DNA of 64,000 nt from Archivesica marissinica (lineage: Eukaryota > Mollusca > Bivalvia > Venerida > Vesicomyidae): positions 49,396,557 through 49,460,556 of the forward strand of contig CM026395.1 of the NCBI GenBank assembly GCA_014843695.1. Reading direction: 5' to 3'. The number at the start of each line of letters is the position of its first letter. The stretch's first letter is position 1. Of this stretch, positions 17,140-56,800 are shown one piece after another. Below the pieces are notes generated by a model, which was not told the origin of the DNA, searched no databases, and saw only the letters and a program-made list of their open reading frames with translations. The position numbers and the translations under genes are program-made.

Positions 17140-20100
17140 CACGACATCAACTATGTCACATCACGACATCAACTATGTCACATCACGACATCAACTATGT
17201 CACAGCATGACACAACATAACCTGCATCACATCACGACATCAACTATGTCACAGCATGACACAACATAACCTGCATCACATCACGACATCAACTATGTCA
17301 CAGCATGACACAACATAACCTGCATCACATCACGACATCAACTATGTCACAGCATGACACAACATAACCTGCATCACATCACGACATCAACTATGTCACA
17401 TCACGACATCAACTATGTCACATCACGACATCAACTATGTCACAGCATGACACAACATAACCTGCATCACATCACGACATCAACTATGTCACAGCATGAC
17501 ACAACATAACCTGCATCACATCACGACATCAACTATGTCACAGCATGACACAACATAACCTGCATCACATCACGACATCAACTATGTCACAGCATGACAC
17601 AACATAACCTGCATCACATCACGACATCAACAATGTCACAGCATGACACAACATAACCTGCATCACATCACGACATCAACTATGTCACAGCATGACACAA
17701 CATAACCTGCATCACAGCATGACACAACATAACCTGCATCACAGCATGACACAACATAACCTGCATCACAGCACGACACAACATAAACTGCATCACAGCA
17801 TGACACAACATAACCTGCATCACAGCATGACACAACATAACCTGCATCACAGCATGACATCAACTATGTCACAGCATGACACAACATAACCTGCATCACA
17901 GCATGACACAACATAAACCTGCATCACAGCATGACACAACATAACCTGCATCACAGCATGACATCAACTATGTCACAGCATGACACAACATAACCTGCAT
18001 CACAGCATGACACAACATAACCTGCATCACAGCATGACACAACATAACCTGCATCACAGCATGACACAACATAAACTGCATCACATCACGACATCAACTA
18101 TGTCACAGCATGACACAACATAACCTGCATCACATCACGACATCAACTATGTCACAGCATGACACAACATAACCTGCATCACAGCATGACACAACATAAC
18201 CTGCATCACAGCATGACATCAACTATGTCACAGCATGACACAACATAACCTGCATCACAGCATGACACAACATAACCTGCATCACAGCATGACACAACAT
18301 AACCTGCATCACAGCATGACACAACATAAACTGCATCACATCACGACATCAACTATGTCACAGCATGACACAACATAACCTGCATCACATCACGACATCA
18401 ACTATGTCACAGCATGACACAACATAAACTGCATCACAGCATGACACAACATAACCTGCATCACAGCATGACACAACATAAACTGCATCACAGCGCGACA
18501 CAACATAAACTGCATCACAGCATGACACAACATAAACTACATCACAGCGCGACACAACATAAACTGCATCACAGCATGACACAACATAACCTGCATCACA
18601 CAACATAACCTGCATCACAGCATGACACAACATAAACTGCATCACAGCATGACACAACATAACCTGCATCACAGCATGACACAACATAAACTGCATCACA
18701 GCATGTCACAACATAAACTGCATCACAGCATGACACAACATAACCTGCATCACAGCATGACACAACATAAACTGCATCACAGCGCGACACAACATAAACT
18801 GCATCACAGCATGACACAACATAACCTGCATCACAGCATGACACAACATAAACTGCATCACAGCGCGACACAACATAAACTGCATCACACAACATAAACT
18901 GCATCACAGCATGACACAACATAACCTGCATCACAGCATGACACAACATAAACTGCATCACAGCATGACACAACATAAACTGCATCACAGCGCGACACAA
19001 CATAAACTGCATCACATCATGACACAACATAAACTGCATCACAGCATGACACAACATAACCTGCATCACAGCATGACACAACATAACCTGCATCACAGCA
19101 TGACACAACATAAACTGCATCACAGCATGACACAACATAAACTGCATCACAGCATGACACAACATAACCTGCATCACAGCATGACACAACATAACCTGCA
19201 TCACAGCATGACACAACATAACCTGCATCACAGCATGACACAACATAACCTGCATCACAGCATGACACAACATAAACTGCATCACAGCATGACACAACAT
19301 AACCTGCATCACAGCATGACACAACATAAACTGCATCACAGCGCGACACAACATAAACTGCATCACAGCATGACACAACATAAACTGCATCACAGCGCGA
19401 CACAACATAAACTGCATCACATCATGACACAACATAAACTGCATCACAGCATGACACAACATAACCTGCATCACAGCATGACACAACATAACCTGCATCA
19501 CAGCATGACACAACATAAACTGCATCACAGCATGACACAACATAAACTGCATCACAGCATGACACAACATAACCTGCATCACAGCATGACACAACATAAC
19601 CTGCATCACAGCATGACACAACATAACCTGCATCACAGCATGACATAACATAACCTGCATCACAGCATGACACAACATAAACTGCATCACAGCATGACAC
19701 AACATCAACTGCGTCACAGTGCGATACAACATCAACTGCATGACAGCATGACATAACATCAACTGCATCACAGCATGATACAACATCAACTGTGTCACAG
19801 CATGACACAACATCAACCGCGTCACAGCATGACACAACATAAACTGCGTCACAGCATGACACAACATCAACTGGGTCACAGCGCGACACAACATCAACTG
19901 CGTCACAGCATGACATAACATCAACTGCATCACAGCATGACACAACATCAACTGCGTCACAGTGCGATACAACATCAACTGCATCACAGCATGACATAAT
20001 ATCAACTGCATCACAGCATGACACAACATCAACTGCGTCACAGTGCGATACAACATCAACTGCGTCACAGCATGACACAACAGCAACTGGGTCACAGCAT

Positions 20101-20575
20101 GACATAACATCAACTGCGTCACAGCATGACACAACATAAACTGCATCACAGCATGACACAACATCAACTGGGTCACAGCATGACATAACATCAACTGCGT
20201 CACAGCATGACATAGCATCAACTGGGTCACAGCATGACATACCATCAACTGGGTCACAGCATGACATAACATCAACTGCATCACAATGCATCATCAATTG
20301 TGTCACAGTGCGATACAACATCAATTGCGTCACAGTGCGATACAACATCAATTGCGTCACAGTACGATACAACATTAATTGCATCACAGTGCGATACAAC
20401 ATCAATTGCGTCACAGTGCGATACAACATCAATTGCGTCACAGTGCGATACAACATCAATTGCGTCACAGTGCGATACAACATTAATTGTGTCACAGTGC
20501 GGCACAACATTAATTGCGTCACAGTGCGGCACAACATCAATTGCGTCACAGTGCGATACAACATCAATTGTGTAA
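17140..20575 (-). repeat. 27-bp minisatellite just past the ABHD stop codon
   Basis: About 3.4 kb of 27-bp units (plus-strand core CATGACACAACATAACCTGC then ATCACAG). Three zones are visible: 17140-17700 alternates with a CACGACATCAACTATGT variant, 17700-19690 is nearly homogeneous, and 19690-20575 is diverged (GCGTCACAGTGCGATACAAC). It begins 78 bp beyond the stop codon, so it probably lies in the 3' UTR or immediate flank. The minus (sense) strand is rich in U and G (TTATGTTGTGTCATG). As 27 is a multiple of three, open frames of hundreds of codons exist on both strands and are artefacts. Confidence 0.95.
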
Positions 20576-20652: not shown

Positions 20653-20832
20653 TCAAACTTGTGTAAAAGGATAGTTCTCTAGATCACTTTCAGTCTTTGC
20701 TCTTTTTATTTCTGCCTGTACTGTTATAGCATTGTCAGCATGTTTGTCCATGGTATCTAAATACTGGTTAAGCAAGATGTTGAAGTTTTCGGCTTTATCC
20801 GCATATACGTGATGGCCTGCACCAACAATTAT
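20653..20832 (-). CDS. ABHD4: ABHD-like exon 6 (catalytic His, stop codon)
   Basis: Using the most 3' of 18 repeated acceptors (TTTTCAG|ATAATT), 180 bp encode residues 325-383 and TGA at 20653-20655. It begins IIVGAGHHVYADKAENFNIL with His331 and the HX4D Asp336, and continues with a charged C-terminal extension (EIKRAKTESDLENYPFTQV). Using any upstream acceptor would insert 19 to 323 residues in frame. No canonical AATAAA is seen before the 27-bp array; CATAAA occurs at about 20609-20614. Confidence 0.9.
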   Translation of the reverse strand: MIVGAGHHVYADKAENFNILLNQYLDTMDKHADNAITVQAEIKRAKTESDLENYPFTQV

Positions 20833-23800
20833 CTGAAAACAACACCAAGCTTTATCCGCATATACGTGATGGCCTGCACCAACAATTATCTGAAAACAAC
20901 ACCAAGCTTTATCCGCATATACGTGATGGCCTGCACCAACAATTATCTGAAAACAACACCAAGCTTTATCCGCATATACGTGATGGCCTGCACCAACAAT
21001 TATCTGAAAACAACACCAAGCTTTATCCGCATATACGTGATGGCCTGCACCAACAATTATCTGAAAACAACACCAAGCTTTATCCGCATATACGTGATGG
21101 CCTGCACCAACAATTATCTGAAAACAACACCAAGCTTTATCCGCATATACGTGATGGCCTGCACCAACAATTATCTGAAAACAACACCAAGCTTTATCCG
21201 CATATACGTGATGGCCTGCACCAACAATTATCTGAAAACAACACCAAGCTTTATCCGCATATACGTGATGGCCTGCACCAACAATTATCTGAAAACAACA
21301 CCAAGCTTTATCCGCATATACGTGATGGCCTGCACCAACAATTATCTGAAAACAACACCAAGCTTTATCCGCATATACGTGATGGCCTGCACCAACAATT
21401 ATCTGAAAACAACACCAAGCTTTATCCGCATATACGTGATGGCCTGCACCAACAATTATCTGAAAACAACACCAAGCTTTATCCGCATATACGTGATGGC
21501 CTGCACCAACAATTATCTGAAAACAACACCAAGCTTTATCCGCATATACGTGATGGCCTGCACCAACAATTATCTGAAAACAACACCAAGCTTTATCCGC
21601 ATATACGTGATGACCTGCACCAACAATTATCTGAAAACAACACCAAGCTTTATCCGCATATACGTGATGGCCTGCACCAACAATTATCTGAAAACAACAC
21701 CAAGCTTTATCCGCATATACGTGATGACCTGCACCAACAATTATCTGAAAACAACACCAAGCTTTATCCGCATATACGTGATGACCTGCACCAACAATTA
21801 TCTAAAGACAACACCAAAGAATGCAGTCATCCTAATGACATCCCCTTAGAAATGACATTTCAATTTTCCTTCAATACACTAGCTTCTAGTACATTTTTTT
21901 CTAGGTCTTTTCCTAAGTTATACTGTCCGATTAGCACTCGCTTCTCACCAATGCAACCCGGGTTCGATCCTCGGACCGGGAAGTATGTGAGATGGTATGG
22001 TGGTCGCCAGATCAGACAGGTGGGTTTTCTCAAGGTACTCCGGTTTACTCCCACATGAAAGACCACATATACGCTTTCATCCAGAGTGATTAATATAAGT
22101 TACTTGCTTCGCAATCGTTGTAAAATACTGTCGAACAATCAATTTCTGTTTATGATTCGCAGGTCCGTTCTCCTTCTATTTAGGGACACACTCAACATCG
22201 ATGCAATCAACCCAGAAGAGAGGCAATATGGAATTTAAGAGCACACCCGAGAGCGAACCCGAGTGGCCTCTCACACCCGAGGAGCGAACCCGAGCAGCCT
22301 CTCATACCCGAAGAGCGAACCCGAGTGGTCTCTCACACCCGAAAAGAGCGAACCCGAGCAGGCTCTCATGGCCTCTCACACCTGAAGAGCGAACCCGAGC
22401 AGCCCCTCACACCCGAAAAGCGAACCCGAGCGGTCTCTCACACCCGAAAAGAGCGAACCCGAGCAGGCTCTCATGGCCTCTCACACCCAAAGAGCGAACA
22501 CGAGCAGCCCCTTACACCCGAAGAGCGAACCCGAGTGGCCTCTCACACCCGAAGAGTGAACCCGAGCGGCCTCTCACACCCGAAGAGTGAACCCGAGCGG
22601 CCTCTCACACACGAAGAGCGAACCCGAGCGGCCTCTCACACCCGAAGAGTGAACCCGAGCGGCCTCTCACACCCGAAGAGTGAACCCGAGCTGGTCTCTC
22701 ACACACGAAGAGCGAACCCGAGCGGCCTCTCACACCCGAAGAGTGAACCCGAGCGGCCTCTCACACCCGAAGAGTGAACCCGAGCGGCCTCTCACACCCG
22801 AAGAGTGAACCCGAGCTGGTCTCTCACACACGAAGAGCGAACCCGAGCGGCCTATCACACCCGAAGAGCAAACCCGAGCGGCCTCTCACACCCGAAGAGC
22901 GAACATGCTACCATAAATATTATTTACTTACTGCAATGACGAGGTCTGAATATAATGGTGACACATCTCATGGTCAAACCCATTTGTGTACCGCTATTTT
23001 ATTAGTATGTCTGATTGTTCTGGATTTTATTTGATTGTGTTTATAGTTTTTTTGAGGTTTAACGTCACACCAACAGCTTAGGTCATATAGCGACTCTCCA
23101 GCTAGTATTGGCTCCTCCGAGCAGTATTTCAGACATGGGCGGGCACCCGGGTAGAACCACCGGCCTACTGCAAGCCAGCTGGATAGCTTCCTCACTTGAA
23201 ATAAATTGACACCCACAGTGGGATTCAAACCTACAGTGGTGAGGGGCAAGTGATTAGAAGTCAGCGACCTTAACCACTCGGCCACGGAGGCCCCATTTTT
23301 ACTTGTATGATATATATTCAATATTAAACTACGCAAGTCAAATGTCTAACTTAATCGAGATTGTTACTAACCTAATGGAGATTGCTACTAACCTAATGGA
23401 GATTGTTACTAACCTAATGGAGGTTGTTACTAACCTAATGGAGAATGTTACTAACATAATGGAGGTTGTTACTAACCTAATGGAGGTTGTTACTAACCTA
23501 ATGGAGGTTGCTACTAACCTAATCGAGGTTGTTACTAACTTAATGGAGGTTGTTACTAACTTAATGGAGGTTGTTACTAACTTAATGGAGGTTGTTACTA
23601 ACCTAATGGAGATTGTTACTAACCTAATGGAGGTTGCTACTAACCTAATGGAGGTTGTTACTAACTAAATGGAGATTGTTACTAACTTAATGGAGATTGT
23701 TACTAACCTAATGGAGGTTGCTACTAACCTAATGGAGGTTGTTACTAACCTAATGGAGGTTGTTACTAACCTAATGGAGGGAGGTTGTTACTAACCTAAT

Positions 23801-26800
23801 GGAGTTTGTTACTAACCTAATGGAGATTGTTAATAACCTAATGGAGGTTGTACTAACCTAATGGAGGTTGTTACTAACCTAATGGAGGTTGCTACTAACC
23901 TAATGGAGGTTGTTACTAACCTAATGGAGGTTGTTACTAACCTAATGGAGGGAGGTTGTTACTAACCTAATGGAGGTTGTTACTAACCTAATGGAGGGAG
24001 GTTGTTACTAACCTAATGGAGTTTGTTACTAACCTAATGGAGATTGTTAATAACCTAATGGAGGTTGTACTAACCTAATGGAGGTTGTTACTAACCTAAT
24101 GGAGGTTGCTACTAACCTAATGGAGATTGTTACTAACCTAATGGAGGTTGTTACTAACCTAATGGAGATTGTTACTAACCTAATGGAGGTTGTTACTAAC
24201 CTAATGGAGGGAGGTTGTTACTAACCTAATGGAGATTGTTACTAACCTAATGGAGTTTGTTACTAACCTAATGGAGGTTGTTACTAACCTAATGAAGATT
24301 GTTACTAACCTAATGGAGGTTGTTACTAACCTAATGGAGGTTGTTACTAACCTAATGGAGATTGTTACTAACCTAATGGAGATTGTTAATAACCTAATGG
24401 AGGTTGTACTAACCTAATGGAGATTGTTACTAACCTAATGGAGATTGTCACTAACCTAATGGAGGTTGTTACTAAGGAGTTGACATTGATCTAATGGGGA
24501 TTTATTACTGACCTAAAGGGGATGTGCTAGTAAGCTAATGGGACCTTATTACAAACCAAATGGTGATATATTACTAACGAAATGGTGATATATTACTAAC
24601 AAATGGTGATATATTACTAACAAATGGTGATATATTACTAACAAATGGTGATATATTACTAACAAATGGTGATATATTACTAACGAAATGGTGATATATT
24701 ACTAACAAATGGTGATATAGTACTGTTAGTAATGGTGATATAGTACTAACCAAATGGTGATGTAGTACTAACCAAATGGTGATGTAGTACTAACCAAATG
24801 GTGATATAGTACTAACAAATGGTGATATAGTACTAACCAAATGATATAGTATAACCAAATGGTGATATAGTACTATACAAATGGTGATATTGTACTAACC
24901 AAATGGTGATATCGTACTAACCAAATGGTGATAGAGTACTAACCAAATGGTGATGTAGTACTAATCAAATGGTGATATAGTACTAACCAAATGGTGATAT
25001 AGTACTAACCAAATGGTGATATATTACTAACCAAATGGTGATATAGTACTAACCAAATGGTGATGTAGTACTAACCAAATGGTTATACATAGTACTAACC
25101 AAATGGTGATGTAGTACTAACCAAATGGTGATATAGTACTAACAAATGGTGATATAGTACTAACCAAATGGTGATGTAGTACTAACCAAATGGTGATGTA
25201 GTACTAACCAAATGGTGATATGGTACTAACCAAATGGTGATATAGTACTAACCGAATGATATAGTATAACCAAATGGTGATATATTACTAACCAAATGGT
25301 GATATTGTACTAACCAAATGGTGATATAGTACTAACCAAATGGTGATGTAGTACTAACCAAATGGTGATGTAGTACTAACCAAATGGTGATATAGTACTA
25401 ACTACATATGTAACAGGTGATTTTCTACTAACTTATTGGGGAGTTACTACTAACCTCTACATCCACTCTGCTCTCATTCCGAAGGTATTTTGTCTGGTTC
25501 CCACATTCCCTGTCCATCCAGGTCCGGGATCCGTAGATAAATGTAAGAGGAAGGTCCTTGTCGATGTCCGCAATGCGCTGTATCATGGGCCGCTTGGCCC
25601 ACCCTAAAGGCAAGGCCAGGGTCTTGAAGGCTGATTCACCACTATAAACAATTATGTATATTGTTTTATATGCCCAGATACCGCAATAGTAAACATAAAA
25701 TGTCAGTTGTCTGATTAGCACAGTGGTCATCACGCTCTCTTCTCATCAATGCAACCAGAGTTTGATCCTCGGATAGGGAAGTATGTGTGAGATGGTATGG
25801 TGGTTTTCTCTGGATACTCCAGTTTCCTACCACTTATATGCTTTCATCCATGCAAATGCGAGTAATTAACATAAGTTTCATAATTGTTGCAAACTAAATA
25901 AAGTTTATGAAACAAACAAGATCACCACGCATGATTGGCTATCTATATTTTTGAGAAATAATAATTTCTGATATCAACTAATTTTTGCCAAAATTCAAGT
26001 TAAAGTTTACTAATGGGGGCGTGTGGGTGTAAATAATTAGTCGTTGATTTTGCACAGTATGCAAAGTTGTAAAACAACAACTTTAACAGTTTTTGAGAAA
26101 TGATAATGTTTAGTTCATACAAATTAATTTTAGCTCGATTGCGAAACAAGTTCTTATAACTTATATTAATCACTCTCGAGACCTCATTCCTGATGGAATC
26201 CATCGCGACGAGGAAGAGGCAACGTGGAATTAAATGCCTTGCCTAAGGGCACAATCGTTAGTTTGTTACGCCTCCAGCGGGGTTCGAACTCCGGACGTTT
26301 CACAACTGAAGCGAATGCGCTACCACTGCACTATTACGACTCCCACAATGCACGCATGCATGTAAAGAAATGCTGAAATCAGACCATTTTTGGACAAGTT
26401 CAAGGTCACTCTATGGGCTGTGGACTTACTGTGGGTGAAGAGAAATAGTACCCATGTGTATCCAAATAAAAGCAATAACTTGGCCGGTTTTTGATAAATG
26501 ACAATGTTTGAGTTTTTCTAAGCATAAATAATTTCCGAATTTCCAAAAACGGTGACCGGAAAACCGACTGATTAGTCTCACTTAAAGTGGACGAGATGAA
26601 AACCTAAACCCTGAGCTCAAAAGAGGGAGAAATAAGAGAGATCAGGGAGAATACTTCTCCCAAATCGTCCTGTCACTCCAGCCCCTATGTACCTTGGGAA
26701 TTGGGCATTGCAGTGATAGATGTAGTCTAGAATTGTGTCGTCATCAAACAGCTGAGAAAACTTGGCTTGCAGATCTGGGCGAAATCTTTTGATTAAACCT

Positions 26801-29800
26801 GGACCTAGAAGAATAGACAACATTTTTATTTTTTTCGATTTTTATTTCCTGATCAATTACACATATATATAATAATTACACATATACATAATAATTACAC
26901 ATATATATAATAATTACACATATACATAATAATTACACATATATATAATAATTACACATATACATAATAATTACACATATATATAATAATTACACATATA
27001 CATAATAATTACACATATATAAAGTTATATGTAATCATGAGAAGCTACGTAAAGCGTTGAAATAATAACCTGATGTATATTGGGAGGGAGGGGTAATTTT
27101 TTAAGTAGAAGAGATAAGATTAGCAAAAGAAAGTAGGAATAGACAACATTGCTGTGATAAGAAACAATAAAACATACTTATCACATTACCCTTGTATTCA
27201 GTGTAATACAGCCATCATATATTTTCTTAGATGTTATAATGTACACATTATAAAGCACTGCTTCTATTCATATATTCTATTTAATTGTCATATTGAGTAT
27301 TTTAATCCTATTTTGATGAAATGTGTGTGTTTTACGTTTATTTATCATCGCTACCGGTTGCCCATATGAGCGACGCCGCCTGAAGAGATTAGTCATTTTA
27401 GATTTTTGGAGGATAGTGCAATGATACAGACAGAGACCCATTCCAGAGTCTCCTCTGGTTCTTTTACATGCACGATGTAAAGCAACGACACGAGACCTCG
27501 GTTTAAAGTCCCATCTGAAAGACTGTTAATTTTATTAGGGTCAGACGGGGGATCGAACCTGCGATCCCTGGATTACCAGTCCAACGTGTTAACCACTGGA
27601 CTACAGATCCGTCTGATGAAATTTATTAAATAACATCATTTAAAGATGCAATCGCGCGCTTTCTCACTTTTCCCAAACATTCTCATCTAAAATGAGTCGT
27701 GAAGAGATATGCAATTAAGTAAAATGTAAAATGTATTCTTATCTTAACCCTTTCCCTCATAGAAGCACCTCTTGACACCATTACCAATATGACATACATT
27801 GACGTAAATTAGCCAACCCAATGTTCATAATAAAGGCTAGAATCTCATGTAGTCCCAGTAATATCTATGGATGTGGGACAGATATGGCGACTATTTATCC
27901 ACTGCATGATAGCTAAATGACTGTCGTTTGTATGGAGATATAATAGTATATAACCTAAATCTCTATGTAGTTCCAGTAATATCTATGGAGGTGGGATAGA
28001 TATGATGACTACTTATCCACTGCATGATAGCTAAATGACTGTCGTTTGTATGGAAATATAATAGTATATAAATCTCTATGAATGAAAGGATTAGGTAAAA
28101 GTTTGATGACCTGTCGACAAATGAACTATTTTTGTGAAATTGTTATTTGTAAATTACCTCCCTTGATGAGAATTTATCTACAATCCCGAATAACTTTGTA
28201 AATTCTTGTTTATAATAACACTTAGCCTGGGTTCTGCGATTTTTCACTTCTGGTAAAATGACATAATCAGAAACAATACGGCCCAATTAATAGTCTCGGT
28301 GTTAAAATATATTTATTTGACTGTCCAGGCAAAATATATCGACGCCTGTTCCCAGGCTAAATAACACTATACAGCTGAACAATAGCTTATTTTTCCGCTT
28401 GAATAACAAATTAGGGCTTGACACTTGTTCAAATTACATAGTTAGTGTTTTGAATTTCTAGGCCCGCCTAATAAATATAGCACCGAAGATACAGTGGTAT
28501 TGGGGGAGTGGTACTAGTGGCATGCCCCCCAGGACAACTTTGAATACATGGTGCATAGTTCTGACATATTTTAATGTACGTTTTAAGACATTCATATTTC
28601 GCTGTAGTTTTCAAAATGTTGCCAAATTGAGTATAAAATTGCTATACAGAGATGCCATGTTGACATGATGACAGAGATCGACTACACAGATATGTGATCT
28701 CGTGGTGAGATATGCGAGATTCTATATCATACAGATATGTGATCTCATGGTGAGATATGCGAGATTCTATATCATACAGATATGTGATCTCGTGGTGAGA
28801 TATGCGAGATTCTATATCATACAGATATGTGATCTCATGGTGAGATATGCGAGATTCTATACCATACAGATATGTGATCTCGTGGTGAGATATGTGAGAT
28901 TCTATACCATACAGATATGTGATCTCGTGGTGAGATATGCGAGATTCTATATCATACAGATATGTGATCTCATGGTGAGATATGCGAGATTCTATACCAT
29001 ACAGATATGTGATCTCGTTGTGAGATATGCGAGATTCTATACCATACAGATATGTGATCTCGTGGTGAGATATGCGAGATTCTATATCATACAGATATGT
29101 GATCTCATGGTGAGATATGCGAGATTCTATATCATACAGATATGTGATCTCGTGGTGATATGCGAGATTCTATATCATACAGATATGTGATCTCGTGGTG
29201 ATATGCGAGATTCTATATCATACAGATATGTGATCTCGTGGTGAGATATGCGAGATTCTATATCATACAGATATGTGATCTCGTGGTGATATGCGAGATT
29301 CTATATCATACAGATATGTGATCTCGTGGTGAGATATGCGAGATTCTATATCATACAGATATGTGATCTCGTGGTGAGATATGCGAGATTCTATACCATA
29401 CAGATATGTGATCTCGTAGTGAGATATGCGAGATTCTATACCATACAGATATGTGATCTCGTGGTGATATGCGAGATTCTATATCATACAGATATGTGAT
29501 CTCATGGTGAGATATGCGAGATTCTATACCATACAGATATGTGATCTCATGGTGAGATATGCGAGATTCTATACCATACAGATATGTGATCTCGTGGTGA
29601 GATATGCGAGATTCTATACCATACAGATATGTGATCTCGTGGTGAGATATGCGAGATTCTATACCATACAGATATGTGATCTCGTAGTGAGATATGCGAG
29701 ATTCTATACCATACAGATATGTGATCTCGTGGTGAGATATGCGAGATTCTATACCATACAGATATGTGATCTCGTGGTGAGATATGCGAGATTCTATATC

Positions 29801-32800
29801 ATACAGATATGTGATCTCGTGGTGAGATATGCGAGATTCTATACCATACAGATATGTGATCTCGTGGTGAGATATGCGAGATTCTATACCATACAGATAT
29901 GTGATCTCGTGGTGAGATATGCGAGATTCTATATCATACAGATATGTGATCTCGTGGTGAGATATGCGAGATTCTATACCATACAGATATGTGATCTCGT
30001 AGTGAGATATGCGAGATTCTATACCATACAGATATGTGATCTCGTGGTGAGATATACGAGATTCTATACCATACAGATATGTGATCTCGTGGTGAGATAT
30101 GCGAGATTCTATACCATACAGATATGTGATCTCGTGGTGAGATATGCGAGATTCTATATCATACAGATATGTGATCTTGTGGTGAGATATGCGAGATTCT
30201 ATACCATACAGATATGTGATCTCGTGGTGAGATATGCGAGATTCTATATCATACAGATATGTGATCTCGTGGTGAGATTCTATACCATACAGATATGTGA
30301 TCTCGTGGTGAGATATGCGAGATTCTATACCATACAGATATGTGATCTCGTGGTGAGATATGCGAGATTCTATACCATACAGATATGTGATCTCGTGGTG
30401 AGATATGCGAGATTCTATATCATACAGATATGTGATCTCATGGTGAGATATGCGAGATTCTATACCATACAGATATGTGATCTCGTGGTGAGATATGCGA
30501 GATTCTATACCATACAGATATGTGATCTCGTGGTGAGATATGCGAGATTCTATACCATACAGATATGTGATCTCGTGGTGAGATATGCGAGATTCTATAC
30601 CATACAGATATGTGATCTCGTGGTGAGATATGCGAGATTCTATATCATACAGATATGTGATCTCGTGGTGAGATATGCGAGATTCTATACCATACAGATA
30701 TGTGATCTCGTGGTGAGATATGCGAGATTCTATATCATACAGATATGTGATCTCGTGGTGAGATATGCGAGATTCTATACCATACAGATATGTGATCTCG
30801 TGGTGAGATATGCGAGATTCTATACCATACAGATATGTAATCTCGTGGTGAGATATGCGAGATTCTATACCATACAGATATGTGATCTCGTGGTGAGATA
30901 TGCGAGATTCTATACCATACAGATATGTGATCTCGTGATGAGATATGCGAGATTCTATATCATACAGATATGTGATCTCGTGGTGAGATATGCGAGATTC
31001 TATACCATACAGATATGCTAATACCTACTCAATATTTATTGCATTTTTGGCCTGTTTAGACTTCATATTCTATTGCAAGTTGCAGGCCCAGGCCTTCAGT
31101 GCCTTATAGGAGTTACACACCTGACATGTGTAAATGTTTCAACATTTAATGCAGTCAATATTTTTGCCTTGTCTTTCTGTCCACTTACCCCAAGGTCCCG
31201 TAGCTCTGACTACTGCAAGTGGATTAAATGGTTGAAGCACCTTGGCAACTGCTCGAACCCACACCGGTATCCTCTTGCTGCGCTCGTTATCTTTTGGACG
31301 ATCGGGAAAGCCCCACGGATCTATCACGAACAAATGTTGTATCCTATCTGGATATTTTAACGCATACGCACTAACAATATAGGCGCCCAAACTGTGCCCA
31401 AGCAATGCCATTTTGTCTATTTTCATTTCTTGCCTCCATTCCTCGATAGATTCAACAAATTCCATTTCCACTAGTCTTGCACTTGAGCTAAATGTGGGTC
31501 TAGAACTTCTTCCAAACCCAAGCAAGTCAAAAGCATAAACGGGCCGCTTTGCCGAGAAAGCATCAATATTCTGAGCCCACAGCCCAATCCCTCCACCCAT
31601 CCCATGCACCATGACCAGTGGTACGCCAGGCTTGTCTTTGCTTGCAACCACTGTCCATATCCTGTGTTGACTTTGAGGAAGTGTAACAAATCTTTTGTCA
31701 AAAACACTTTTTAAACCTGAAAATAACAAAATTATGTAATGTCAATGTACATAATAAATGTATATAATTTTAATGAATGGCTCCCACTTCAGTGTTCAAA
31801 TATCAACAAACTTTACAATAAAAGCCTAGTTTTAAAAATGATTAAAAAAACACCGATTATATTTATTTCTATAATCAATCCCAAAAATTTGATACAATGA
31901 TTATTGGTGTCATATGTTGATGATGATGTTGATGATGGAGCTATGACGATGACGGAAAGTATGATACATAACAAAATGTATGTGTTATTTGATGATTGGT
32001 GGCCGCCTCACATCCAGATGATCCACACCTGCATTAAGTGCTCACTCACCTTAAGGAACCAAAATAGTCATTTCCCTTGAGTGGCTGCTCAAGACAGGAT
32101 TGACTGTAGCAAACTAAATATACAGGTTAGCCTGTGTTCCAGTAGGTCGATTTTCACCAATTCACTTCTGGCAAAATAACATTATCAGAAACTCAATACG
32201 GTACAATTAATGGTCTCGGTGTTAAAATATATTTATATCACTGACAAGCAAAAATATATCAACGTCAGTTCCCAGGCTACATACATGTGAATATTAATCC
32301 AAAATGTACCTGTACATATATACAAGGTCATCACAGTTTATTTAATACAAATTTAGTTTATCTCGAATGCGAAACAAGTTCTTACAATATTAGTTTAATC
32401 GCTCTCGAGACCTCATTCCTGATGGAATCCATCGCCATGAGGGAGAGAGGAGACAATGTGGAATGTAAGTGCCTTGTTGAAGGGCACACTCATAATGGCT
32501 ACAGCTGGCCATCTCAATTACTGGTATCTAAAGCGAATGCGCTACCACTGCACTATCAGTGCGCTACCACACCACTACCACAGCACTATCAATGTGCTAC
32601 CACTGCGCTACCACTGTACTATCACTGCGCTACCACTGTACTATCACTGCGCTACCACTGCACTATCACTGCGCTACCACTGTACTATCACTGCGCTACC
32701 ACTGCACTATCACTATGCTACCATTGCACTATCACTATGCTATCACTGTACTATCACTGCGCTACTACTGCACTATCACTATGCTACCACTGCACTATCA

Positions 32801-44800: not shown

Positions 44801-47800
44801 ATTAGTTTAAACATATTTATTTTCTGTCAATACATGATAATTTACAACAACTGATATAAGGAATTGAACAGAAAGCTGTATAGTTTACGATTGTCCTCAC
44901 CCTATTGGTTAATTGAATGATATACAAAGATTTGATTAATCCCATGGCATAAATAATCACAACTAAACTAACACCTATACAGCCACAAACAGGACCGCAA
45001 TTTAATCATGTCCGCCGAGGATCATGGGTAGTAATCGCTGAGAATCATGGGTAATATCCAAGAACAGTAATCAACAGACAATCTTGTTTCTTGAGAGAAG
45101 AGTATGGATGTAAGTCTTATCTGTAAGGTGTATCATGTAGATGACACATAGTAATTAACCCATTCAACACCAAGTAACTGACATGGACTGGACCATCATA
45201 TTGCTAGACCAATAAATTAATAAGAAAAATACATTTGGACCAGTTCATTTATTAAAATGGATAATTTTGTCCAAAAATAGTATTACTGGCAAAAATATTG
45301 CAGATTGCAGATCCTGATGAGACGGATCATCACTAGCCGGCTCATCTGGATCAACACTTTTTGTAATCCTATTTAGATATCTGTAGTATGGTTTAATGCA
45401 TTTTCATGCATTTTCATACTATAACATGTACATACAATTTTGAACATAAAAATAATAAAACTAAAAATTCCAGGTAAGTTTAATTAATATGTAATAATTA
45501 GAAATAATATTTGAGCTGCACCATGACAAAACAAACATAGCACAAGTCAAGAACTACTAATGTTAGAAAGATAAACTTGGTAACATTGTAGTTTTATAAA
45601 TATTATGAAATACCATTATGTTTCAAATCACAATCGGCGAAGACAGGGTTAGGGCGAATATTTTGCCCATGTCGCTATCTAGAATGAGCTGTGCATGTTA
45701 CGATCGACACAATGGAATCATAGTGGGTACAGTGAACTTCCAGCAATCTCTACGGAGGTTGGATAGACATGATACATGTACATTGATCATGAAAGTAAAT
45801 GGCTGACATATGTATGGAGATATAGTTACATATAAACATATATCTCTACGGAGATTGGATAGACATGATTTATGTGCATCCAGTGATTAACCCTTTCAAC
45901 CCCAAGTAACTGACATGGACTGGTGCATGCTATTTTTAGACCAATAAATTAATAAGAAAATTACATTTGGACCAGTTCATTTATCAAAATGGGTAATTTT
46001 ATCTAAAAATAGTAATAATTATTACTGGCAAAAAAGTGCAGATCCTGATGAGACGGCTCATTACGAGCCAGCTCATCTGGATCTACACTTTTCATAAGCC
46101 TATTTAGAGGCCTGTGGGGTTGAAAGGGTTAAGATAGATGGCTGCGATATGTATGGAGATATAGTTACATATAAACATATATCTCTACGGAGATTGGATA
46201 GACATGATTTATGTGCATCCAGTGATTAAGATAGATGGCTGCGATATGTATGGAGATAAGAGTAGCATGTAAGCCTACGTTTCTACGTTAACGATAGAGA
46301 CAGTAACGAAATATACAATTGGCAGTAATCTTGTGACAATTGGCAGTAATCTTGTGACAATTGGCAGTAATCTGGGTATTAGGGTTAGGGCTAAATTTGA
46401 TCTTCAATTGAAGAGTATTCTACTGTTCAGCTTTAGTTTACTGCCACCTATTTTGTGGGATTACTGCCTCTATCCCTAACCACGTTTCTATATGGGAAAT
46501 ACTTACTGTGTAGCATATAAGCTTACGTTTCTATGTGGGAAATACTTACTGTGTAGTATATAAGCTTACGTTTCTATGTGGGAAATACTTACTGTGTAGC
46601 ATATAAGCTTACGTTTCTATGTGGGAAATACTTACTGTGTAGCATATAAGCTTACGTTTCTATGTGGGAAATACTTACTGTGTAGCATATAAGCTTACGT
46701 TTCTATGTGGGAAATACTTACTGTGTAGCATATAAGCTTACGTTTCTATGTGGGAAATACTTACTGTGTAGCATATAAGCTTACGTTTCTATGTGGGAAA
46801 TACTTACTGTGTAGCATATAAGCTTACGTTTCTATGTGGGAAATACTTACTGTGTAGCATATAAGCTTACGTTTCTATGTGGGAAATACTTACTGTGTAG
46901 CATATAAGCTTACGTTTCTATGTGGGAAATACTTACTGTGTAGCATATAAGCTTACGTTTCTATGTGGGAAATACTTACTGTGTAGCATATAAGCTTACG
47001 TTTCTATGTGGGAAATACTTACTGTGTAGCATATAAGCTTACGTTTCTATGTGGGAAATACTTACTGTGTAGCATATAAGCTTACGTTTCTATGTGGGAA
47101 ATACTTACTGTGTAGCATATAAGCTTACGTTTCTATGTGGGAAATACTTACTGTGTAGCATATAAGCTTACGTTTCTATGTGGGAAATACTTACTGTGTA
47201 GCATATAAGCTTACGTTTCTATGTGGGAAATACTTACTGTGTAGCATATAAGCTTACGTTTCTATGTGGGAAATACTTACTGTGTAGCATATAAGCTTAC
47301 GTTTCTATGTGGGAAATACTTACTGTGTAGCATATAAGCTTACGTTTCTATGTGGGAAATACTTACTGTGTAGCATATAAGCTTACGTTTCTATGTGGGA
47401 AATACTTACTGTGTAGCATATAAGCTTACGTTTCTATGTGGGAAATACTTACTGTGTAGCATATAAGCTTACGTTTCTATGTGGGAAATACTTACTGTGT
47501 AGCATATAAGCTTACGTTTCTATGTGGGAAATACTTACTGTGTAGCATATAAGCTTACGTTTCTATGTGGGAAATACTTACTGTGTAGCATATAAGCTTA
47601 CGTTTCTATGTGGGAAAGGCTTAATACTTACTGTGTAGCATATAAGCTTACGTTTCTATGTGGGAAATACTTACTGTGTAGCATATAAGCTTACGTTTCT
47701 ATGTGGGAAATACTTACTGTGTAGCATATAAGCTTACGTTTCTATGTGGGAAATACTTACTGTGTAGCATATAAGCTTACGTTTCTATGTGGGAAATACT

Positions 47801-50800
47801 TACTGTGTAGCATATAAGCTTACGTTTCTATGTGGGAAATACTTACTGTGTAGCATATAAGCTTACGTTTCTATGTGGGAAAGGCTTAATACTTACTGTG
47901 TAGCATATAAGCTTACGTTTCTAATGTGGGAAATACTTACTGTGTTACTGTGTAGCATATAGGCTTACGTTTCTATGTGGGAAAAGCTTAATAGTTAATG
48001 TGTAGCATATAAGCTTACGTTTCTATGTGGGAAATACTTACTGTGTAGCATATAAGCTTACGTTTCTATGTGGGAAATACTTACTGTGTAGCATATAAGC
48101 TTACGTTTCTATGTGGGAAATACTTACTGTGTAGCATATAAGCTTACGTTTCTATGTGGGAAATACTTACTGTGTAGCATATAAGCTTACGTTTCTATGT
48201 GGGAAATACTTACTGTGTAGCATATAAGCTTACGTTTCTATGTGGGAAATACTTACTGTGTAGCATATAAGCTTACGTTTCTATGTGGGAAATACTTACT
48301 GTGTAGCATATAAGCTTACGTTTCTATGTGGAAATACTTACTGTGTAGCATATAAGCTTACGTTTCTATGTGGGAAATACTTACTGTGTAGCATATAAGC
48401 TTACGTTTCTATGTGGGAAATACTTACTGTGTAGCATATAAGCTTACGTTTCTATGTGGGAAATACTTACTGTGTAGCATATAAGCTTACGTTTCTATGT
48501 GGGAAATACTTACTGTGTAGCATATAAGCTTACGTTTCTATGTGGGAAATACTTACTGTGTAGCATATAAGCTTACGTTTCTATGTGGGAAATACTTACT
48601 GTGTAGCATATAAGCTTACGTTTCTATGTGGGAAATACTTACTGTGTAGCATATAAGCTTACGTTTCTATATGGGAAATACTTACTGTGTAGCATATAAG
48701 CTTACGTTTCTATGTGGGAAATACTTACTGTGTAGCATATAAGCTTACGTTTCTATTTGGGAAATACTTACTGTGTAGCATATAAGCTTACGTTTCTATG
48801 TGGGAAATACTTACTGTGTAGCATATAAGCTTACGTTTCTATGTGGGAAATACTTACTGTGTAGCATATAAGCTTACGTTTCTATGTGGGAAATACTNNN
48901 NNNNNNNNNNNNNNNNNNNNNNNNNNNNNNNNNNNNNNNNNNNNNNNNNNNNNNNNNNNNNNNNNNNNNNNNNNNNNNNNNNNNNNNNNNNNNNNNNNNN
49001 NNNNNNNNNNNNNNNNNNNNNNNNNNNNNNNNNNNNNNNNNNNNNNNNNNNNNNNNNNNNNNNNNNNNNNNNNNNNNNNNNNNNNNNNNNNNNNNNNNNN
49101 NNNNNNNNNNNNNNNNNNNNNNNNNNNNNNNNNNNNNNNNNNNNNNNNNNNNNNNNNNNNNNNNNNNNNNNNNNNNNNNNNNNNNNNNNNNNNNNNNNNN
49201 NNNNNNNNNNNNNNNNNNNNNNNNNNNNNNNNNNNNNNNNNNNNNNNNNNNNNNNNNNNNNNNNNNNNNNNNNNNNNNNNNNNNNNNNNNNNNNNNNNNN
49301 NNNNNNNNNNNNNNNNNNNNNNNNNNNNNNNNNNNNNNNNNNNNNNNNNNNNNNNNNNNNNNNNNNNNNNNNNNNNNNNNNNNNNNNNNNNNNNNNNNNN
49401 NNNNNNNNNNNNNNNNNNNNNNNNNNNNNNNNNNNNNNNNNNNNNNNNNNNNNNNNNNNNNNNNNNNNNNNNNNNNNNNNNNNNNNNNNNNNNNNNNNNN
49501 NNNNNNNNNNNNNNNNNNNNNNNNNNNNNNNNNNNNNNNNNNNNNNNNNNNNNNNNNNNNNNNNNNNNNNNNNNNNNNNNNNNNNNNNNNNNNNNNNNNN
49601 NNNNNNNNNNNNNNNNNNNNNNNNNNNNNNNNNNNNNNNNNNNNNNNNNNNNNNNNNNNNNNNNNNNNNNNNNNNNNNNNNNNNNNNNNNNNNNNNNNNN
49701 NNNNNNNNNNNNNNNNNNNNNNNNNNNNNNNNNNNNNNNNNNNNNNNNNNNNNNNNNNNNNNNNNNNNNNNNNNNNNNNNNNNNNNNNNNNNNNNNNNNN
49801 NNNNNNNNNNNNNNNNNNNNNNNNNNNNNNNNNNNNNNNNNNNNNNNNNNNNNNNNNNNNNNNNNNNNNNNNNNNNNNNNNNNNNNNNNNNNNNNNNTGT
49901 AGCATATAAGCTTATGTTTCTATGTGGGAAATACTTATGTGTAGCATATAAGCTTACGTTTCTATGTGGGAAATACTTACTGTGTAGCATATAAGCTTAC
50001 GTTTCTATGTGGGAAATACTTACTGTGTAGCATATAAGCTTATGTTTCTATATGGGAAATACTTACTGTGTAGCATATAAGCTTACGTTTCTATGTGGGA
50101 AATACTTACTGTGTAGCATATAAGCTTACGTTTCTATGTGGGAAATACTTACTGTGTAGCATATAAGCTTACGTTTCTATGTGGGAAATACTTACTGTGT
50201 AGCATATAAGCTTACGTTTCTATGTGGGAAATACTTACTGTGTAGCATATAAGCTTACGTTTCTATGTGGGAAATACTTACTGTGTAGCATATAAGCTTA
50301 CGTTTCTATGTGGGAAATACTTACTGTGTAGCATATAAGCTTACGTTTCTATGTGGGAAATACTTACTGTGTAGCATATAAGCTTACGTTTCTATGTGGG
50401 AAATACTTACTGTGTAGCATATAAGCTTATGTTTCTATGTGGGAAATACTTACTGTGTAGCATATAAGCTTACGTTTCTATGTGGGAAATACTTACTGTG
50501 TAGCATATAAGCTTACGTTTCTATGTGGGAAATACTTACTGTGTAGCATATAAGCTTATGTTTCTATGTGGGAAATACTTACTGTGTAGCATATAAGCTT
50601 ACGTTTCTATGTGGGAAATACTTACTGTGTAGCATATAAGCTTACGTTTCTATGTGGGAAATACTTACTGTGTAGCATATAAGCTTACGTTTCTATGTGG
50701 GAAATACTTACTGTGTAGCATATAAGCTTACGTTTCTATGTGGGAAATACTTACTGTGTAGCATATAAGCTTACGTTTCTATGTGGGAAATACTTACTGT

Positions 50801-53800
50801 GTAGCATATAAGCTTACGTTTCTATGTGGGAAATACTTACTGTGTAGCATATAAGCTTACGTTTCTATGTGGGAAATACTTACTGTGTAGCATATAAGCT
50901 TACGTTTCTATGTGGGAAATACTTACTGTGTAGCATATAAGCTTATGTTTCTATGTGGGAAATACTTACTGTGTAGCATATAAGCTTACGTTTCTATGTG
51001 GGAAATACTTACTGTGTAGCATATAAGCTTACGTTTCTATGTGGGAAATACTTACTGTGTAGCATATAAGCTTACGTTTCTATGTGGGAAATACTTACTG
51101 TGTAGCATATAAGCTTACGTTTCTATGTGGGAAATACTTACTGTGTAGCATATAAGCTTACGTTTCTATGTGGGAAATACTTACTGTGTAGCATATAAGC
51201 TTATGTTTCTATGTGGGAAATACTTACTGTGTAGCATATAAGCTTACGTTTCTATGTGGGAAATACTTACTGTGTAGCATATAAGCTTACGTTTCTATGT
51301 GGGAAATACTTACTGTGTAGCATATAAGCTTACGTTTCTATGTGGGAAATACTTACTGTGTAGCATATAAGCTTACGTTTCTATGTGGGAAATACTTACT
51401 GTGTAGCATATAAGCTTACGTTTCTATGTGGGAAATACTTACTGTGTAGCATATAAGCTTACGTTTCTATGTGGGAAATACTTACTGTGTAGCATATAAG
51501 CTTATGTTTCTATATGGGAAATACTTACTGTGTAGCATATAAGCTTACGTTTCTATGTGGGAAATACTTACTGTGTAGCATATAAGCTTATGTTTCTATA
51601 TGGGAAATACTTACTGTGTAGCATATAAGCTTACGTTTCTATGTGGGAAATACTTACTGTGTAGCATATAAGCTTACGTTTCTATGTGGGAAAGGCTTAA
51701 TACTTATTGTGTAGCATATAAGCTTATGTTTCTATGTGGGAAATACTTACTGTGTAGCATATAAGCTTACGTTTCTATGTGGGAAATACTTACTGTGTAG
51801 CATATAAGCTTACGTTTCTATGTGGGAAAGGCTTAATACTTATTGTGTAGCATATAAGCTTATGTTTCTATGTGGGAAATACTTACTGTGTAGCATATAA
51901 GCTTACGTTTCTATGTGGGAAATACTTACTGTGTAGCATATAAGCTTACGTTTCTATGTGGGAAATACTTACTGTGTAGCATATAAGCTTACGTTTCTAT
52001 GTGGGAAATAGTTACTGTGTAGCATATAAGCTTACGTTTCTATGTGGGAAAGGCTAATACTTACTGTGTAGCATATAAGCTTACGTTTCTATGTGGGAAA
52101 TACTTACTGTGTAGCATATAAGCTTACGTTTCTATGTGGGAAATACTTACTGTGTAGCATATAAGCTTACGTTTCTATGTGGGAAATACTTACTGTGTAG
52201 CATATAAGCTTACGTTTCTATGTGGGAAATACTTACTGTGTAGCATATAAGCTTACGTTTCTATATGGGAAATACTTACTGTGTAGCATATAAGCTTACG
52301 TTTCTATGTGGGAAATACTTACTGTGTAGCATATAAGCTTACGTTTCTATGTGGGAAATACTTACTGTGTAGCATATAAGCTTACGTTTCTATGTGGGAA
52401 ATACTTACTGTGTAGCATATAAGCTTACGTTTCTATGTGGGAAATACTTACTGTGTAGCATATAAGCTTACGTTTCTATGTGGGAAATACTTACTGTGTA
52501 GCATATAAGCTTACGTTTCTATGTGGGAAATACTTACTGTGTAGCATATAAGCTTACGTTTCTATGTGGGAAATACTTACTGTGTAGCATATAAGCTTAG
52601 TTTCTATGTGGGAAATACTTACTGTGTAGCATATAAGCTTACGTTTCTATGTGGGAAATACTTACTGTGTAGCATATAAGCTTACGTTTCTATGTGGGAA
52701 ATACTTACTGTGTAGCATATAAGCTTACGTTTCTATGTGGGAAATACTTACTGTGTAGCATATAAGCTTACGTTTCTATGTGGGAAATACTTACTGTGTA
52801 GCATATAAGCTTACGTTTCTATGTGGGAAATACTTACTGTGTAGCATATAAGCTTACGTTTCTATGTGGGAAATACTTACTGTGTAGCATATAAGCTTAC
52901 GTTTCTATGTGGGAAATACTTACTGTGTAGCATATAAGCTTACGTTTCTATGTGGGAAATACTTACTGTGTAGCATATAAGCTTACGTTTCTATGTGGGA
53001 AATACTTACTGTGTAGCATATAAGCTTACGTTTCTATGTGGGAAATACTTACTGTGTAGCATATAAGCTTACGTTTCTATGTGGGAAATACTTACTGTGT
53101 AGCATATAAGCTTACGTTTCTATGTGGGAAATACTTACTGTGTAGCATATAAGCTTACGTTTCTATATGGGAAATACTTACTGTGTAGCATATAAGCTTA
53201 CGTTTCTATGTGGGAAATACTTACTGTGTAGCATATAAGCTTACGTTTCTATGTGGGAAATACTTACTGTGTAGCATATAAGCTTACGTTTCTATGTGGG
53301 AAATACTTACTGTGTAGCATATAAGCTTACGTTTCTATGTGGGAAATACTTACTGTGTAGCATATAAGCTTACGTTTCTATGTGGGAAAGGCTTAATACT
53401 TATTGTGTAGCATATAAGCTTTTCTATGTGGGAAATACTTACTGTGTAGCATATAAGCTTACGTTTCTATGTGGGAAATACTTACTGTGTAGCATATAAG
53501 CTTACGTTTCTATGTGGGAAATACTTACTGTGTAGCATATAAGCTTACGTTTCTATGTGGGAAATACTTACTGTGTAGCATATAAGCTTACGTTTCTATG
53601 TGGGAAATACTTACTGTGTAGCATATAAGCTTATGTTTCTATATGGGAAATACTTACTGTGTAGCATATAAGCTTACGTTTCTATGTGGGAAATACTTAC
53701 TGTGTAGCATATAAGCTTACGTTTCTATGTGGGAAAGGCTTAATACTTATTGTGTAGCATATAAGCTTATGTTTCTATGTGGGAAATACTTACTGTGTAG

Positions 53801-56800
53801 CATATAAGCTTACGTTTCTATGTGGGAAATACTTACTGTGTAGCATATAAGCTTACGTTTCTATGTGGGAAGGCTTAATACTTATTGTGTAGCATATAAG
53901 CTTATGTTTCTATGTGGGAAATACTTACTGTGTAGCATATAAGCTTACGTTTCTATGTGGGAAATACTTACTGTGTAGCATATAAGCTTACGTTTCTATG
54001 TGGGAAATACTTACTGTGTAGCATATAAGCTTACGTTTCTATGTGGGAAATAGTTACTGTGTAGCATATAAGCTTACGTTTCTATGTGGGAAAGGCTTAA
54101 TACTTACTGTGTAGCATATAAGCTTACGTTTCTATGTGGGAAATACTTACTGTGTAGCATATAAGCTTACATTTCTATGTGGGAAATACTTACTGTGTAG
54201 CATATAAGCTTACGTTTCTATGTGGGAAATACTTACTGTGTAGCATATAAGCTTACGTTTCTATGTGGGAAATACTTACTGTGTAGCATATAAGCTTACG
54301 TTTCTATATGGGAAATACTTACTGTGTAGCATATAAGCTTATGTTTCTATGTGGGAAATACTTACTGTGTAGCATATAAGCTTACGTTTCTATGTGGGAA
54401 ATACTTACTGTGTAGCATATAAGCTTATGTTTCTATGTGGGAAATACTTACTGTGTAGCATATAAGCTTACGTTTCTATGTGGGAAATACTTACTGTGTA
54501 GCATATAAGCTTACGTTTCTATGTGGGAAATACTTACTGTGTAGCATATAAGCTTACGTTTCTATATGGGAAATACTTACTGTGTAGCATATAAGCTTAT
54601 GTTTCTATGTGGGAAATACTTACTGTGTAGCATATAAGCTTACGTTTCTATGTGGGAAATACTTACTGTGTAGCATATAAGCTTACGTTTCTATGTGAGA
54701 AATACTTACTGTGTAGCATATAAGCTTACGTTTCTATGTGGGAAATACTTACTGTGTAGCATATAAGCTTACATTTCTATGTGGGAAATACTTACTGTGT
54801 AGCATATAAGCTTACGTTTCTATGTGGGAAATACTTACTGTGTAGCATATAAGCTTATGTTTCTATGTGGGAAATACTTACTGTGTAGCATATAAGCTTA
54901 CGTTTCTATGTGGGAAATACTTACTGTGTAGCATATAAGCTTACGTTTCTATGTGGGAAATACTTACTGTGTAGCATATAAGCTTACGTTTCTATGTGGG
55001 AAATACTTACTGTGTAGCATATAAGCTTACGTTTCTATGTGGGAAATACTTACTGTGTAGCATATAAGCTTATGTTTCTATATGGGAAATACTTACTGTG
55101 TAGCATATAAGCTTATGTTTCTATGTGGGAAATACTTACTGTGTAGCATATAAGCTTACGTTTCTATGTGGGAAATACTTACTGTGTAGCATATAAGCTT
55201 ACGTTTCTATGTGAGAAATACTTACTGTGTAGCATATAAGCTTACGTTTCTATGTGGGAAATACTTACTGTGTAGCATATAAGCTTACATTTCTATGTGG
55301 GAAATACTTACTGTATAGCATATAAGCTTACATTTCTATGTGGGAAATACTTACTGTGTAGCATATAAGCTTATGTTTCTATGTGGGAAATACTTACTGT
55401 GTAGCATATAAGCTTACGTTTCTATGTGGGAAATACTTACTGTGTAGCATATAAGCTTTCGTTTCTATGTGGGAAATACTTACTGTGTAGCATATAAGCC
55501 TACGTTTCTATGTGGGAAATACTTACTGTGTAGCATATAAGCTTACGTTTCTATGTGGGAAAGGCTTAATACTTACTGTGTAGCATATAAGCTTACGTTT
55601 CTAATGTGGGAAATACTTACTGTGTAGCATATAAGCTTACATTTCTATGTGGGAAATACTTACTGTGTAGCATATAAGCTTACGTTTCTATGTGGGAACT
55701 ACTTACTGTGTAGCATATAAGCTTACGTTTCTATGTGGGAAATACTTACTGTGTAGCATATAAGCTTACGTTTCTATGTGGGAAATACTTACTGTGTAGC
55801 ATATAAGCTTACGTTTCTATGTGGGAAAGGCTTAATACTTACTGTGTAGCATATAAGCTTACGTTTCTAATGTGGGAAATACTTACTGTGTTACTGTGTA
55901 GCATATAGGCTTACGTTTCTATGTGGGAAAAGCTTAATAGTTAATGTGTAGCATATAAGCTTACGTTTCTATGTGGGAAATACTTACTGTGTAGCATATA
56001 AGCTTACGTTTCTATGTGGGAAAGGCTTAATACTTACTGTTCAAAATGCGTGACTCAATCTGTATTAGTTGAGCCATTGATGTTGGAACCCACTTAAACC
56101 ATCCGCCACTCTCTTCACTGACAGCTACAATTTGACTGCAAAAGCAAATAATACAAATAATAAGCTATTTTATCACCCCCCACCCTAAAGAAAGTGACGT
56201 CTAATGTGGGACTTGTAGGGTCGTGTCTTGTATACCACTCACAGATTTACAGCCGGGGTTTGCTATCATAATAAACATCGGTTTGACGGTTTATATGCAT
56301 TATTTCATCATCATCATCTCTGGTGATTGCCTCAATCTGTCACGGGCCGTAACTATGGTTGTTGAACACATTTGTAATTGTGTAATTGATAGATATACAA
56401 TGAATAGTGGTTTCTCGTGTTCTCGATGGGCCCATGTTCTCGAGGTAGATTATATTGACACCGTTTTGTTAACGAGAACCTTACAATTGTCTGTAAGTCA
56501 TTAAATGTTTACTCAACTGTAAACAGTAAATGCCGGGCCAGTGGAAATATCCAAAATGTTGGTAAGTATCGCTACTGAAAGGAGCAAGTTACTAAATTGG
56601 AAGATAGAATCTAGCCCCACCATATACCCTTCATATATATATACAGTGAAACCTGTGTTAGTGGTCACCTCCATTAAGCAGCCAACCCTTATTAAGCAGC
56701 TAGTTACCAGATTCCCAATATGTTGTCTTATTATATATTTTACCTCTATTAAGCAATAAGCAGCCACCTGTGTTAAGCAGCCACTTTCTCTGACTCCCTT

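Follow-up and report, generated by a model that had tools for sequence, protein, structure and literature searches.

At the last exon of a predicted hydrolase gene of the clam Archivesica marissinica, the junction between intron and exon occurs 18 times in tandem. The initial annotation read this array as a copy-number-variable device able to produce a ladder of protein lengths, each step remaining in frame, or else as a decoy acceptor array that lowers correct splicing. The locus thus raises two questions: which of the 18 acceptors opens the exon, and whether the array is an evolved generator of length variants or a minisatellite that the gene tolerates.

A Predicted ABHD4-Like Gene and Its Arrays

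The gene lies on the minus strand of the window (the whole 64,000-nt stretch of DNA that was analyzed). Its model covers exons 2 to 6, positioned by homology, with the ends of exon 2 set by eye. The features used below, in window coordinates and in the order of transcription, are these (a slash marks a splice boundary):

56038..56135, minus strand, exon 2 (QIVAVSEESGGWFKWVPTSMAQLIQIESRILN), by homology, its start and first four residues by eye
46506..56037, minus strand, 43-bp minisatellite in the intron after exon 2, with 185 copies of ACA/GTAAGTATT
31189..31716, minus strand, exon 3, by homology, with the GHSLG nucleophile motif and Pfam Abhydrolase_1
26693..26804, minus strand, exon 4, by homology
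25455..25641, minus strand, exon 5, by homology, ending in phase 0
23371..25454, minus strand, 85 copies of GTTAGT in the 5' part of the exon 5-exon 6 intron, the first being the real exon-5 donor
21802..21831, minus strand, first acceptor in the direction of transcription (GTCTTTAG), its tract, and a branch-point-like TGAC with its A near 21827
20776..21801, minus strand, 18 tandem 57-bp copies of the acceptor and exon-6 start, the last continuing into canonical exon 6
20653..20832, minus strand, canonical exon 6 (IIVGAGHHVYADKAENFN...TQV, stop), by homology
17200..20551, minus strand, 27-bp minisatellite about 100 bp past the stop codon

The predicted product is an ABHD4-like hydrolase (lyso-N-acylphosphatidylethanolamine lipase-like). 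It matches Pfam PF00561 (E = 1.3e-23) and has the features of ABHD4/5-type proteins, namely an abhydrolase domain with a GXSXG nucleophile, here GHSLG, and the GAGHHVYAD histidine motif in the last exon, one histidine of which we take to be catalytic. Residues G146, H147, S148, and G150 (numbering of P0001) are invariant in 35 homologs hand-chosen from the listed homology matches, and none of these 35 aligned proteins has an insertion after HHVYAD. The closest matches in a protein homology search, each at 85% identity, came from Mercenaria mercenaria and Ruditapes philippinarum, as fits a venerid-like clam. Two homology searches, the second of which scored the 7999 candidates sharing most words and contributed the best 120 of 589 matches, listed 187 proteins, none recognized as the clam's own and the best at 85% identity to it; WCCFQ occurred in 0 of these 187. 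No known repeat-bearing protein was found among the 187 matches listed; one of them, a beetle protein of 502 aa (P0034), has two GAGHH-like motifs 126 residues apart and no tandem array. The gene looks single-copy, as all four protein matches of the assembly fall in the window, and the same four matches yielded no paralog, haplotig, or retrocopy in which the spliced form could be read.

Several other features of the window were recorded. The 27-bp array (127 copies) may form the 3' UTR of the ABHD4-like gene, and the intron after exon 2 holds an open 1077-aa LINE-type ORF with endonuclease and reverse transcriptase (40042-43275). An Rfam scan gave three tRNA-like matches, none inside the 57-bp array.

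The Exon-6 3' Splice Junction Is Repeated in a 57-bp Unit

A sequence scan of the window located the 18 copies of the exon-6 3' splice junction at 20776-21801 on the minus strand. The 57-bp unit reads ATAATT...GATAAAGC, which is 41 nt of exon 6, followed by TTGGTGTTGTTTTCAG, the 16-nt intron end. ATAATTGTTGGTGCAGG starts occur 18 times from 21801 to 20832 at an exact spacing of 57, as expected from the 18 tandem in-frame 3' splice sites originally described, and 17 full units precede canonical exon 6. The description of the unit as acceptor plus exon-6 start was also correct, except that the exonic part amounts to 13 2/3 codons and not to 14. TRF reported 18.0 copies at 20792-21817 with a 99% match, so the array consists of the head-to-tail, highly identical units of 10-100 bp that define a minisatellite. 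A 31-mer of the C type (see below) had 15 exact matches in the whole 1.537-Gb assembly, in a search for exact matches to that type, and every one lies inside the array; the 57-bp array is therefore not a chance product.

Variation among the copies is sparse. Their exon-derived parts differ at one silent site, T (GGT) in copies 1, 2, and 4 and C (GGC) in the remaining copies, which bears out the earlier observation that the sole recurrent coding change is silent. The first acceptor is GTCTTTAG and the other 17 are GTTTTCAG, a difference of two transitions within the 16-nt intron end; the 17 downstream acceptors are of the CAG type and identical across the 20 nt preceding the exon. All 16 counted spacings are 57, with no indels, whereas two further arrays of the gene keep their main spacing in 42/49 cases (45 bp) and 163/184 cases (43 bp). 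At 99% match the array is among the three most uniform of 63, and this uniformity marks it as young or constrained; two arrays sampled elsewhere in the genome likewise reach 99%.

As annotated, exon 5 (25641-25455) has a phase-0 end, and its donor begins at 25454 with GTTAGT. From the first acceptor the reading frame runs for 382 aa to the stop at 20653 without an internal stop, and from the last acceptor it runs for 59 aa. The array is thus open in the frame of the gene, as a coding variable-number tandem repeat (VNTR) would be.

Two Donors of the Same Gene Also Lie in Arrays

The initial annotation missed two donor arrays in the ABHD4-like gene. One of them, the 43-bp array (46506-56037), contains 185 identical copies of ACA/GTAAGTATT, and the foremost of these is the exon-2 donor; its unit shares only 3 nt with the exon, and a gap of 1000 N (48898-49897) interrupts the array. 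In the other, GTTAGT occurs 85 times, for the most part every 21/22 bp, beginning with the exon-5 donor. When the first 52 nt past exon 5 were aligned with the GTTAGT array, the score was matched by 0/300 letter shuffles, and for the first 22 nt it was matched by 2/300; the last 40 nt of exon 5 did not align with the array (300/300 shuffles reached the score). Among the 85 GTTAGT are 43 AGGTTAGT, which resemble joined acceptor-donor sites of the kind we take to be ratchet sites.

Given the exon-5 donor array and the 57-bp acceptor array, one intron is crowded at both of its ends and, with the exon-2 donor added, three junctions of the gene lie in arrays. We propose a class of splice-junction-seeded arrays, defined by a unit with sequence from both sides of a junction and by one end unit that is the real junction. 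The ABHD4 acceptor array, the exon-2 donor array, and a kinesin array described below fit this definition, and the exon-5 donor array fits it in part, only the intron side being repeated.

Minisatellites Are Abundant in the Genome and Thin Out toward Exons

The genomic background was sampled in 20 stretches of 10 kb (L013-L032), which were placed by hand at round numbers and not at random. With an array defined by a period of at least 15 and at least 5 copies, 49 arrays covered 76,017 of 192,471 bases (39.5%); the array content of the window is 40.8%. One sampled stretch (L020:4490-5050) contains a coding-like exon end with AAAG/GTAA repeated eight times at 58-61 bp spacing; its 34-aa piece has no Pfam match and is an exon by appearance only.

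Preferential seeding of arrays at splice sites was considered and found no support. The donor motif GT(A/G/T)AGT is present in the consensus units of 4/49 sampled arrays (letter-shuffle mean 3.9), and a 5' splice-site score of at least 7 is likewise reached in 4/49 (shuffle mean 6.2). In the window, which was chosen for its arrays, 3/14 carry the donor motif (shuffle mean 0.9, reached in 11/200 shuffles). Array content also drops toward exons. Around kinase exons, with the boundary of the Pfam match as the reference for distances, 24-mers that recur two or more further times numbered 4/164 in the exon, 12/123 just past its 3' end, and 40/246 and then 63/369 from the donor side into the intron; on the acceptor side the counts were 103/351 and 49/234 for intronic positions, 9/78 close to the exon, and 0/78 inside it. 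Arrays are therefore depleted toward exons, though still present there, as expected if selection removes most of them. Because the sampled arrays lack donor-motif enrichment, splice sites do not look like favored seeds; they look simply not fully protected. Separately, a COX1 match with four TGA was seen on a chromosome-size contig (C18:57969556-57970428), perhaps a nuclear mitochondrial copy.

Junction Arrays Occur in a Minority of Other Splice Sites

Exon ends were surveyed in hand-picked Pkinase and Kinesin matches, which are partial and stop-free and not all of which end at true splice sites, some being single-exon or last-exon matches. A site was counted by rule when the 24-mer at the predicted site had at least two further copies. 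An array built from the exon end and donor was found at 5/61 exon 3' ends (41 Pkinase and 20 Kinesin), two of these by eye. The rule itself picked out L083, L088, L090, and L131 (4/61); L131 was dropped, its exon probably ending ahead of the array, and L051 and L052 were added by eye, so that the rule alone gives 3 or 4/61. At L090 the site chosen by the rule differs from the presumed exon end, and both are repeated. Of 59 exon 5' ends, L110 and L124 had no usable acceptor and were dropped, and 0 of the remaining 57 carried a junction array by rule. Within the kinase set, the comparison of donors with acceptors gave a Fisher p of 0.056 (5/41 v 0/38) or 0.24 (3/41 v 0/38), which makes the asymmetry no more than suggestive. 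Most of the surveyed splice sites have no junction array. At L131, the 41-bp array comprises 7.5 copies, each with TTTTACAG/GTAATG, and starts about 30 nt past the probable kinesin exon end. A 31-bp array of 12 copies at L100 has a consensus with the branch-point-like CTAAC and ends about 9 nt before an acceptor.

Two acceptor arrays came to light outside the survey count. In a kinesin gene (L137, C6:90884200-90885300), an acceptor with its exon start forms 6 units of 113 bp and is out of frame. Translation from acceptor 1 or 2 stops after 56 codons, and in units 3-5 the CAG of the acceptor is replaced by CAT. Unit 6 alone (predicted acceptor at 90884976) continues into an open exon that has a donor. 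On the assumption that this gene works, the last acceptor would be the one used. The analogy with the ABHD4-like gene is imperfect because the intron end within the unit is about 27 nt in the kinesin and 16 nt in the ABHD4-like array. The other is a kinase locus on C12 (L036, L053, and L076), presumably MAST-like, with a piece of a kinase exon and 45 AG/GTAAGC sites in which an acceptor is fused to a donor-like site. Spacings there are 48 (24 cases), 53 (17), and 47 (3), and 28/44 units contain an in-frame TGA; unrelated sequence follows the array, and no intact exon was recognized within 1.5 kb downstream. MAST-like and ratchet site are presumptive labels throughout.

Choice among the 18 Acceptors

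The sequence upstream of acceptor 1 sets it apart from its copies. A branch-point-like TGAC is found 26 nt ahead of it, beyond the limits of the unit, and the 30 nt upstream contain no further AG, findings that agree with the initial suggestion of a distinct tract and a probably ancestral junction. Of the downstream acceptors, whose units are otherwise identical, numbers 2 and 18 were checked for a branch point. Both have a TNAY site (TCAC) 35 nt upstream, with an additional TNAY at 38 nt where the 57-bp unit has T, and in both a competing AG lies 17 nt upstream, between the TNAY and the acceptor; splicing at this AG would add 17 nt and put the product out of frame. The splice-site matrix and the TNAY pattern applied here are general knowledge.

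A preference of the spliceosome for the first AG past the branch point is described in two papers (PMC1431707 and PMC7317903), and in the second, linear scanning is stated to be inapplicable to the effects of almost half of 49 mutations (PMC7317903). Such a first-AG preference favors acceptor 1. Of the 18, only the last acceptor (20832) is predicted to give the conserved protein. The kinesin array suggests that a last acceptor can be the one a gene needs. In classic experiments with duplicated splice sites, full exon context reportedly favors a distal site. Arguments from exon length say little here, because the stop codon is in exon 6 and neither AATAAA nor ATTAAA occurs between 20652 and 17001, 3.6 kb past the stop. 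As judged from these sequence features, dominant use of the last acceptor falls somewhat short of an even chance and so does dominant use of the first, the two being about equal as candidates for the main site; a mixture or ladder would be a fairly unlikely outcome, and any other outcome very unlikely.

A Probably Tolerated Minisatellite and the Alternatives

The reading that we hold to be probable is that the array is a young, tolerated minisatellite seeded by the exon-6 3' splice junction and not an evolved length generator. It would be a by-product of rampant minisatellite growth. Since the normal enzyme needs the last acceptor, substantial use of 20832 would be expected, with in-frame leakage to earlier acceptors. 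Acceptor 1 differs at two sites and the T variant is scattered over several copies, which suggests a history in which a first duplication was followed by a pause and then by expansion from one later unit. The frame of the array does not argue for design. When pretend units were built from 38 predicted acceptors of the clam genome, 27% were open and in frame; since a single unit underlies every copy, "all in frame" reflects one shared property and not 18 independent ones, and it weighs no more than its chance of about 0.27. The kinesin array is out of frame, and frame is therefore no general requirement. What survives of the ladder proposal is that the array spans a real junction and is in frame at 18/18 copies; the inference of a purpose-built ladder does not follow from the frame. 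The ABHD4 array is better seen as one example of a class of minisatellites that span junctions in the clam genome and are tolerated there than as a device.

A rival reading, possible to a degree a little below even odds, is that the array is a coding VNTR. The native upstream acceptor would be used and the array would be exonic, so that the region of the catalytic histidine would gain 17 x 19 residues (IIVGAGHHVYADKAWCCFQ), and copy number would vary protein length between alleles. The TGAC at 26 nt and the 30-nt AG-free zone of acceptor 1 speak for this, as do the array being open throughout for 382 aa, the indel-free 57-bp spacing that its neighbors lack, and the silence of the sole exonic change; by analogy, internal duplications around exon 28 of NOTCH1 expand that region (PMC11718197), a precedent for a lengthened protein. 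The inserted residues would nevertheless fall in the histidine loop of a conserved enzyme, where 35/35 aligned homologs have none, in-frame openness has the 0.27 chance given above, and homogeneity could equally reflect youth, as in the two sampled arrays with the same 99% match. A broader version, in which the clam lineage often amplifies splice junctions and the ABHD4 array is read as exon, yielding an enzyme with as many as 17 additional copies of its catalytic-histidine segment, in a number that varies in the germline, seems doubtful to us; under it, about 185 identical donors and 18 acceptors would mean that splice sites are chosen by position and not by sequence. A true ladder, with many of the 18 acceptors used in one animal and proteins 19 residues apart, is rather unlikely: the identity of the 17 CAG acceptors and the TNAY at 35 nt of the two tested would permit it, whereas the competing AG at 17 nt would shift the frame, and none of the comparisons made requires it.

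It is also unlikely, and slightly more so, that a recent expansion on the sequenced haplotype damaged the gene while other haplotypes stayed short, leaving a deleterious or null allele. High identity suggests recent expansion, and only one gene copy is visible. Against this, exons 2-6 are otherwise intact, and the acceptor types differ at 2/16 nt with the T/C variants spread over copies 1, 2, and 4, so that the duplicated state probably predates the final expansion by some time. An assembly artefact of copy number appears highly improbable. The assembly does break in arrays: the 1000-N gap falls inside the 43-bp array of this very gene, and N runs occur in 10/20 sampled stretches, 8 of the 10 runs lying within 60 bp of an array. 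The 57-bp array, however, is only 1 kb long with unique flanks and no N, and the definite order of its T/C variants, as assembled, argues against simple stutter.

Relation to Known Systems

The ABHD4 array resembles minisatellites and VNTRs in its tandem, near-identical, locally derived units of 10-100 bp, and differs from them in that the unit includes a real 3' splice junction and coding sequence. Some duplications at NOTCH1 exon 28 in T-ALL reportedly copy an intron end with the exon start and lengthen the protein (Sulis 2008). Those duplications give 2 copies and belong to a tumor, compared with 18 copies in a genome assembly for the ABHD4-like gene. NAGNAG tandem acceptors similarly place several in-frame acceptors at one exon start (PMC3250501), whereas the ABHD4 spacing is 57 nt and there are 18 candidate sites. 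Helentron-borne satellite-like repeats of oyster show another bivalve genome full of short tandem arrays (PMC7492417), whereas the junction units of the clam come from the exon and intron at the site itself. Among the titles listed in the open-licence literature, none concerned splice junctions repeated in tandem, which does not imply absence in print.

To our knowledge, choice among identical splice sites has mainly been studied in engineered genes. The clam offers a natural experiment, in which genes that apparently work carry many identical donors and acceptors in a row, and its RNA would reveal whether the choice depends on nearness, the order of transcription, the branch point, or the exonic context. 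Array copy number probably varies between animals, and minisatellites that reach coding exons may let genes change rapidly and may mislead annotation.
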